Shown here: positions 33,351-35,390 of the stretch, piece after piece
How the letters are laid out: every line of letters starts with the position of its first letter
Position numbering within the stretch: the first letter of the stretch is position 1
DNA from: a virus
DNA: 40,308 nucleotides
IMG/VR virus record: IMGVR_UViG_3300025641_000018
Span: 1 to 40,308 of that record
Direction: 5' to 3' (one strand)
Notes under the pieces: model-generated
Told to the model about the DNA's origin: nothing
Seen by the model: only the letters and a program-made list of their open reading frames with translations
Databases searched by the model: none
Made by a program: the position numbers and the translations under genes

Positions 33351-35390
33351 TTACTCGGCGTCGTAGATAGTGTGTACTGCTGGGAAGTTTGCAGTGTAAC
33401 CGGCAACCAGCTCAGCGAAGCCAATTGACTGGCTAGCAACAAGATCGGTACGCTGGTTAGTTACTGAGTAATCAGACTCAATGCTAACGCCGCGCAGACG
33501 AGGAATAACGTAGTTACGAGTGTTAACCAACTGGAATACAGTATCGTTATCACCACGAGTAAGCAGATCAGAAACAACAACCTGGATACCGTAGATAGAA
33601 CCAACAGTACCAGAAGTCTTGCTGTTCAGCTCGCCTACCTGAGAAATATCAGCAAAAGCTGCGTCTTGCATCAGTTCCATGTAACCTTGTGGGCTAACAA
33701 TCAGTGCCAGGTCAGCAGAGTTAATACCATACTTACCCATCTGTGAGCGCGCCTTAACAACTTCCAAAGAAGTCAGAATCTCAGCAGGATTGTTGTGAGA
33801 GAAGTCAGTTACAGCAAGACCACCAAGAGCACCAACGTCTTGAGACAAGCCAACGCCTTGGTCAGTGCCATTAACACCAACTAAACCGCTGATAGATACG
33901 CCATTATCACCAAACATACACATCTTGTCTTTAGCACGTGCATGAGCGCGAGCCATAGCAGACTGAAGCATAGGAAGCAGAGACACAAGAGTCTTCTCGT
34001 CAGTGTCATTCAGCAGGTTAGTGCTAGAAATCAGACGATGAGGCTTCAAGATTACTTGACCAACTGCGTAAGCAGAGTTAGTAGCAGCAGTACCGTTAGT
34101 GTTGTTTTCCAAGTTACCAGCAGCAGCGGCAGTAGCGAAGCTAGCTGCTTCAGCATCTGGATTGATTGGCAGAACGGTAGCACCACCACTTACAGCGATT
34201 TCACGGAAAAGGCCAGCTACTTTTTGCTCTAGCTTAACTTCTTCTTCGAACTGAGTAGCAACAGTAGTATCTAGAGAGATAGTTACGTTGCCAGTAGCAG
34301 TTACAGCTGCGCCGGCTTTTTCCATGATCTCACGACCATAATCAGTGTCCATACCTTTACCAGTAATTTTACCGAGGATGTGGGCGCCTAGGATCTCAGA
34401 ACCTGTTGCTTCAGAAGCACCACGGCCAGAGAAGTCACGCTTGCTCTTACGCATAGCTTCCATTTCAGCAGCTTTCTCTGCGAGGTCTGCCTTATACTTC
34501 TCAACGATTGCAGCGTGGTCAGCGTTCTTAGCTTCAAACTCTTTTTCGAGGTCAGCTTGTAAAGCTTCTACGCCAGTTTGAATACCGGTTTCGATGCTTG
34601 ATTTAATTTGTACGCCTTCAGCTGCTTTAGCGGCTTCGGCTTCTTGAGCTGCTTTAGCTACTGCTTCGTCAGCTGCTTTTTGCTCGGCTTGCTTCATAGC
34701 AATCTTAGCAGCTGTGTCTTCAGCTACCTTCTTTGCAAAAGCTTCCAAGTCGATGTTTTGATTGTCCATTTTGATCTCCTGATCTGCGGAATTAAGTTCC
34801 GCGCTTTTCGGTGTGTGGTCACTAGCTATATTTGAAGAGATATCTTCGTCCTTAGCCAGAGACTGACCGGCTAGATCTACACGATTAGTGAAAGTTTTTT
34901 TGAATTCTTCGTACTCATCAGATGAGTCAAAAGACTTCGCGAGCGAAAAAGTAGCTGCCTGGTTACAAGGTACGGAAACAACCGATACCTCAAACAACTC
35001 AGCGTCCTTAATCATTAGTCCATCAGTTTCCTTTAGGTAATCCGCGTCCTTGATTTTGAAACCGACGGAAAAGGCTCCAAGGACACCGTCTTTAACGAGC
35101 TCAGCAACATTGCCAGGGGCATTTTTGCTGATCTTACATTCGAGTTCTAAACCATTTGGTCCTGCTTTCATACCTGTGGCTCGACCAATCGGTCTGTCAT
35201 AGTCATGATTAAACAGAATAATTGGATTTTTCTCAAAGTTTTGTAATCCACCTTTAGTCCAAGCCTCAGCTGAGATTGTATCACCTGCGCGATCAAAATC
35301 TGCTGTACTAGCCATACCACGGATCATTACTGATCCATCGTCTGATTCTGCGGCCTTGAAAGTAGATGTTAGATTAAAAATCTTATTCAT
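33351..35390 (-). CDS. Prohead protease - scaffold - major capsid protein fusion (HK97 type)
   Basis: A 679-residue protein joining three functions usually encoded separately. Residues 1-170 are an HK97-type (U35) prohead protease: MIRGMASTADFDRAGD, LFNHDYDRPIGRA (catalytic H62), GAFSVGFK (S108), and LFEVSVVSVPCNQAA. Residues about 208-330 are a charged coiled-coil delta/scaffold domain. From about 370 to the end is an HK97 capsid fold (VATQFEEEVKLEQKVAGLFREI, VILKPHRLISSTNLLND, VSPQGYMELMQDAAF). An in-frame ATG at 34769 (M208) with AGGAG six bases upstream could make a separate scaffold-capsid product of 472 residues. Two terminators follow the stop. Confidence 0.92.
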   Translation of the reverse strand: MNKIFNLTSTFKAAESDDGSVMIRGMASTADFDRAGDTISAEAWTKGGLQNFEKNPIILFNHDYDRPIGRATGMKAGPNGLELECKISKNAPGNVAELVKDGVLGAFSVGFKIKDADYLKETDGLMIKDAELFEVSVVSVPCNQAATFSLAKSFDSSDEYEEFKKTFTNRVDLAGQSLAKDEDISSNIASDHTPKSAELNSADQEIKMDNQNIDLEAFAKKVAEDTAAKIAMKQAEQKAADEAVAKAAQEAEAAKAAEGVQIKSSIETGIQTGVEALQADLEKEFEAKNADHAAIVEKYKADLAEKAAEMEAMRKSKRDFSGRGASEATGSEILGAHILGKITGKGMDTDYGREIMEKAGAAVTATGNVTISLDTTVATQFEEEVKLEQKVAGLFREIAVSGGATVLPINPDAEAASFATAAAAGNLENNTNGTAATNSAYAVGQVILKPHRLISSTNLLNDTDEKTLVSLLPMLQSAMARAHARAKDKMCMFGDNGVSISGLVGVNGTDQGVGLSQDVGALGGLAVTDFSHNNPAEILTSLEVVKARSQMGKYGINSADLALIVSPQGYMELMQDAAFADISQVGELNSKTSGTVGSIYGIQVVVSDLLTRGDNDTVFQLVNTRNYVIPRLRGVSIESDYSVTNQRTDLVASQSIGFAELVAGYTANFPAVHTIYDAE
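34767..34802 (-). promoter_or_regulatory. Internal ribosome site, start and hairpin within the capsid fusion
   Basis: On the minus strand the hairpin GCGGAA-CTTAA-TTCCGC (34802-34786) is followed by AGGAG (34780-34776), ATCAAA and an in-frame ATG (34769-34767) at residue 208. The spacing is ideal, and the start lies exactly where the protease domain ends and the scaffold domain begins. Confidence 0.75.

Follow-up and report, generated by a model that had tools for sequence, protein, structure and literature searches.

A probable in-frame nested start and a predicted RNA leader in a protease-scaffold-capsid gene of an uncultured tailed phage

The phage studied here very likely has, in its head module, a nested, in-frame gene pair with products of 72 kDa and 50 kDa and an RNA leader. 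The window is the whole stretch of DNA analysed, 40,308 nucleotides (IMG/VR virus record IMGVR_UViG_3300025641_000018, positions 1 to 40,308). Judged from its sequence, one gene of the window very probably encodes two proteins. Initiation at position 35390 would yield a 72 kDa protease-scaffold-capsid protein, and initiation at Met208 a 50 kDa precursor of scaffold and capsid that would be the counterpart of T5 pb8. We infer that both starts are used. Two products through initiation at codon 208 had been proposed in the initial annotation of this DNA, and comparative analysis supports the proposal on three counts: the junction start is conserved, it coincides with the gene boundary of unfused relatives, and it recurs in a second fusion family.

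Features of the fusion ORF and of its predicted internal start region (all on the minus strand)
Feature	Position	Strand	Remarks
Protease-scaffold-capsid fusion ORF	33351..35390	-	679 aa, open throughout
S78 prohead protease domain (predicted)	34935..35390	-	aa 1-152; Pfam match 18-152
Disordered linker	34770..34886	-	aa 169-207; lowest pLDDT of the structure model; overlies the RNA element
Scaffold (delta) domain (predicted)	34317..34769	-	about aa 208-358, mainly helical; end placed from T5 pb8
Predicted mature HK97-fold capsid protein	33354..34316	-	aa 359-679, 33.4 kDa; from sequence and fold
Predicted nested product, scaffold + capsid precursor	33354..34769	-	472 aa, 49.5 kDa
Internal start codon ATG, Met208	34767..34769	-	codon 208
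Internal Shine-Dalgarno AGGAG	34776..34780	-	upstream of Met208
Long imperfect RNA hairpin	34809..34869	-	7/16 pairs covary
Helices of the long hairpin	34869-34866 with 34812-34809; 34859-34853 with 34828-34822; 34847-34843 with 34838-34834	-	
Short RNA hairpin GCGGAA-CTTAA-TTCCGC	34786..34802	-	4/5 counted pairs covary

The fusion ORF is intact, with no stop codon within its 679 codons, and the protease and the HK97 capsid share one frame, as had been annotated; frameshifting is therefore unnecessary. The N-terminal part is a predicted HK97-type prohead protease of family S78. Peptidase_S78 was matched over residues 18-152 with an E-value of 2.7e-14 in Pfam (PF04586, 54.1 bits, above the curated cut-off of 21), and TIGR01543 of NCBIfam scored 68.7 against a cut-off of 59. 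From sequence and model, the C-terminal part is a predicted T5-type HK97-fold capsid protein. It matched the T5 and DT57C capsid chains with a phmmer E-value of 3.7e-28 and a capsid profile, which itself includes T5, with an E-value of about 1e-130. Its best Foldseek matches were 8ho3, 8zvi and 6oma, at 24-28% identity. The structure model, of low overall confidence (mean pLDDT 58), is disordered from about residue 169 to 214, and the scaffold helix begins at residue 215. The ORF also matched PHROG 80 and PHROG 617 ('major head protein'), the latter covering both of its halves. In its close relatives the protease half is far better conserved than the capsid half, a contrast suggestive of recombination or of strong selection on the shell.

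The motif AGGAG-ATCAAA-ATG, reported earlier at the protease/scaffold junction, was found there, with the spacer ATCAAA at 34775-34770. The Shine-Dalgarno (SD) interaction at Met208, at -7.4 kcal/mol, is the strongest among the 26 in-frame ATG, GTG and TTG codons of the ORF. The calculated masses, 71.9 kDa at full length and 49.5 kDa from Met208, are near the 73 and 50 kDa estimated before. When the Met208 product was aligned with the DT57C capsid precursor, its residue 27 fell on residue 25 of the chain and the two were collinear; Met208 therefore corresponds to the start of a T5-type precursor. K358 is invariant in 16 homologues, and the alignment places it at most one residue from K159 of T5 pb8, after which the scaffold of T5 is cleaved off. 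By analogy, the scaffold would be removed after K358. In most close relatives, but not in diverged ones, the SD core AGGA forms the loop of a GATC-AGGA-GATC mini-hairpin (34770-34785).

Conservation of the junction start was examined among fused homologues. A first scan used a peptide pattern across the junction, and all of the 80 closest relatives that it returned had the junction start; this perfect conservation was not trusted, because the pattern itself spanned the junction, and was set aside. Three further scans were anchored in the protease and thus did not select for the junction. The resulting set comprised 269 fused loci, or 146 at 90% non-redundancy, and the capsid profile was matched in the same frame in 269/269. 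An in-frame ATG or GTG preceded by an SD-like motif is present at the junction in all 146 non-redundant homologues (145 ATG, one GTG), although the linkers differ. These loci thus share what is expected of a nested gene of the C/Nu3 type, an internal SD and start that are conserved and in frame with the longer gene. The settings of SD and start vary widely (AGGAGATCAAAATG, AAGGAATTAAAAATG, AGGAGAATACAATG, GGAGACTAAAATG, AAAGGAGACACACAAGTG). The junction start has the best SD of its ORF in 102/146 homologues, where about 22 would be expected, and in 136/146 it is surpassed by no more than one other start. Moreover, in the window's clade the codons that spell the SD are synonymously fixed (Gln CAG in 39/39, Glu GAG in 52/52), whereas CAA and GAA are commoner than CAG and GAG elsewhere in the gene. 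One member of this clade (L162:3383-3430) has lost most of the linker and the long hairpin and keeps the junction SD and start. An assembly artefact was rejected as the source of the fusion, since 249 closed fused ORFs were counted among the retrieved loci, some contigs being repeated. With T5-like sequences included, the capsid alignment proved too diverged for searching, and a search with the capsid part recovered no relatives in bacterial genomes.

The strength of the protease start was also compared. In the window's clade the SD of the protease start is weaker than the internal SD in 48 of 51 homologues, with mean energies of -4.8 and -7.75 kcal/mol respectively; because of this weak SD, the long form is presumably the rarer one in this clade. 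In the clade of L150 and in others the SD of the protease start is equal to or stronger than the internal one, which rules out that the protease SD is weak in general. In the scheme that we propose, the long form would be a minor product whose scaffold and capsid domains let it co-assemble, bringing a few copies of the protease into each prohead. The protease would then cut the scaffold away near K358, on the model of K159 in T5, leaving a capsid protein of 33 kDa.

Unfused relatives place the gene boundary at the same point. The protease and capsid are adjacent, separate genes with gaps of 3-17 nt in T5, BF23, Vibrio phage phi 3, Enterobacter phage KKP_3711, Vibrio phage D308 and Klebsiella phage pKMKP103. 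These T5-like isolates have the same gene order, and the boundary between their protease and capsid lies where the fused ORFs have the junction start. In the protease tree, fused and split proteins are intermixed, and well-supported branches force at least five changes of state. LEKL-type tails end the split T5-like proteases and are absent from the fused ones. In Vibrio phage phi 3 (L084:2080-2088) the two genes lie in the same frame with one stop codon and three bases between them, one substitution away from fusion. The capsid of Stenotrophomonas phage SOVA965 (L339:978-2383) is annotated as two overlapping pieces, perhaps owing to a frameshift or a sequencing error.

Upstream of the internal SD, the 6-bp hairpin noted in the initial annotation is real; it is conserved and belongs to a larger RNA element. 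On its own, given the amino acids encoded, the short hairpin of the window is not significant under a synonymous-codon null (p = 0.12); what makes it significant is the covariation seen among relatives. The long and short hairpins together show compensatory changes at 11/21 pairs in the window's clade. The bases of this fold pair in 97.9% of alignment cells, against 23-41% in slid controls, and positions -29 and -18 pair variously as GC, CG, TA and AT. In one covarying pair both partners are third codon positions (GCC with CCG 30 times, GCA with CCT 19 times). None of 500 shuffles reached the observed covariation; as these counts ignore relatedness, the argument rests on the slid control and on how varied the pair changes are. 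RNAalifold, applied to 58 distinct sequences, returned a structure of about 100 nt at -23.7 kcal/mol with 8 covarying pairs. Synonymous sites are most conserved at codons 169-216 for the window's clade and at codons 169-192 for its sister clade. Along the ORF, the synonymous-shuffle z is lowest in the 99-nt stretch immediately preceding the internal start in two clades (-2.75 and -3.28). In a local-folding profile, the window's clade and the L150 sister clade have a hairpin equally far upstream of the ATG, with different stems, and a comparable long hairpin plus short hairpin occurs in the sister clade, where 7/17 pairs covary. With the covariance model of the window's clade, the best matches in the sister clade and in L134/L137 were weak and fell precisely on the junction; split T5-like loci and the PAJU2 family discussed below gave no match. 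No comparable structure is evident in the remaining clade, 56/146 fused homologues (about 38%); thus the structure is not required for the nested start in general. A search of the window against Rfam 15 returned no match at the gathering score.

From these data we infer that the element is a structured RNA leader within the coding sequence with a role in initiation. It would promote or regulate initiation at Met208; in the simplest case, it would prevent the internal ribosome-binding site from pairing in translated RNA. Consistent with this, accessibility of the SD in the window's clade is 0.52, compared with 0.38 in synonymous shuffles (p = 5e-10); outside this clade, the sister clade included, the effect is absent. 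However, elongating ribosomes have to unfold the RNA. That the element represents an undescribed family of regulatory RNA in the coding sequence of many uncultured phages, setting or switching the ratio of protease to capsid, perhaps by means of two exclusive folds or of feedback from the capsid protein, is put forward only tentatively.

Other actions of the structure were considered. A cut upstream could generate a capsid messenger with a structured 5' end followed by the SD, so that the structure would serve messenger processing or stability. Retention of the order hairpins, SD, start in two clades is compatible with this rather unlikely function, which would complement internal initiation and not substitute for it. 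A regulated switch, for example one in which the capsid protein binds its own leader, seems less likely still. It would exploit two exclusive folds sharing the strand 34859-34853, the long hairpin and a three-way junction. Both are nearly fully pairable in the 58 sequences (98.8% and 99.0%), and a possible CC-GG pairing could mask the SD, but much of the remaining pairability is explained by invariant columns common to both folds, and covariation favours one of them (7/16 against 4/20 pairs). The three-way junction, our initial model, was placed second because covariation is higher in the long hairpin, whose model was also better at finding the sister clade; the single-sequence fold, with a z of -2.65 against dinucleotide shuffles, likewise pointed to the long hairpin. 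It is improbable that the structure slows elongation and thereby lets the protease fold ahead of scaffold synthesis: it does lie at a domain boundary within a disordered linker, but its distance upstream of the internal SD is nearly fixed and the SD is conserved as well. A leader that keeps the internal ribosome-binding site open remains our preferred reading of the element.

A second, distant S78 fusion family includes Pseudomonas phage PAJU2, whose protein is annotated 'prohead protease fused capsid protein' (P85500). Like the ORF of the window, that of PAJU2 has an S78 protease in frame with a scaffold and an HK97 capsid, and an SD and ATG at the junction; unlike it, it is distant on the protease tree, is described as self-cleaving and has no match to the RNA model. 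The strongest in-frame SD of PAJU2 (L326:2032-4035), CCAGGAGGGCAACGACATG, precedes Met197, at the protease/scaffold junction. The family, with members from Pseudomonas, Salmonella, Escherichia and Rhizobium phages and from prophages, has an SD and ATG at the junction in 9/9 fused ORFs, and this start ranks first among internal in-frame starts in 7/9. Four relatives with an early stop in the protease are split. That the whole gene makes a single 72 kDa product from which the protease frees itself, the internal SD being fortuitous, is very improbable: the fused ORFs do run without interruption over their whole length, and a paper on another phage records autocatalytic cleavage as proposed for PAJU2 and a polyprotein as noted for Nocturne116 (PMC8306868), while a related triple fusion is treated as one gene in another (PMC8508860), but 146/146 and 9/9 fused ORFs carry a junction SD and start, with differing linkers and synonymous fixation, and one protease per capsid subunit would be hard to pack. 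Given the strong SD at Met197, the self-cleaving reading of PAJU2 may itself need revision. The protease and capsid also share one gene in thaumarchaeal proviruses (PMC6563490) and in Pseudomonas phage MD8 (PMC8508860); unlike for the window's ORF, an internal start is not among the features described in the available parts of these two sources. In the MD8 fusion (L327:4371-6452), of a ClpP-type protease and a capsid, a very strong SD lies upstream of Met185 and another upstream of Met220, close to where the scaffold is proposed to start.

Annotations and descriptions usually treat ORFs that fuse protease and capsid as one protein or as a polyprotein that cleaves itself. Because the internal start is conserved in two distant fusion families, such ORFs may instead be nested genes. 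If so, nesting would explain how capsid subunit is made in large excess over protease from a single gene, and by what route the protease enters the head. The covarying RNA that precedes this start is a concrete candidate for controlling the proportions of the head proteins, and it illustrates that RNA folding can shape the sequence of a protein linker. Protease-capsid fusions were already known (thaumarchaeal proviruses, MD8, PAJU2), as were nested protease/scaffold genes (lambda). In a limited search of the open-access literature, we found no paper on an internal start in fusions of this kind, and no description of a nested capsid start in a triple fusion, occurring in two families and with covarying RNA in one.

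Among the closest known systems is that of T5 and DT57C (protease pb11, capsid precursor pb8 of D20-21), which shares with the window the gene order, a homologous protease (about 44% identity), the capsid, and a scaffold that forms the N-terminal part of the capsid precursor and begins where Met208 aligns. Unlike the window's ORF, T5 has no fusion; a stop codon and a 17-nt gap separate its two genes. In lambda C/Nu3 and comparable nested genes, an in-frame internal start gives a product without the protease, as predicted for the window. The resemblance to lambda drawn in the initial annotation is apt in principle, but Nu3 is scaffold only, the lambda capsid has a separate gene and the protease is of another family, whereas in the window the frame runs on through the capsid, so that the nested product comprises scaffold and capsid. 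Herpesvirus UL26/UL26.5 likewise pairs a long protease-scaffold form with an abundant short form that has the same C-terminus, as proposed here; unlike in the window, the short form arises from a separate transcript and not from an internal ribosome-binding site, and the capsid protein is not fused.
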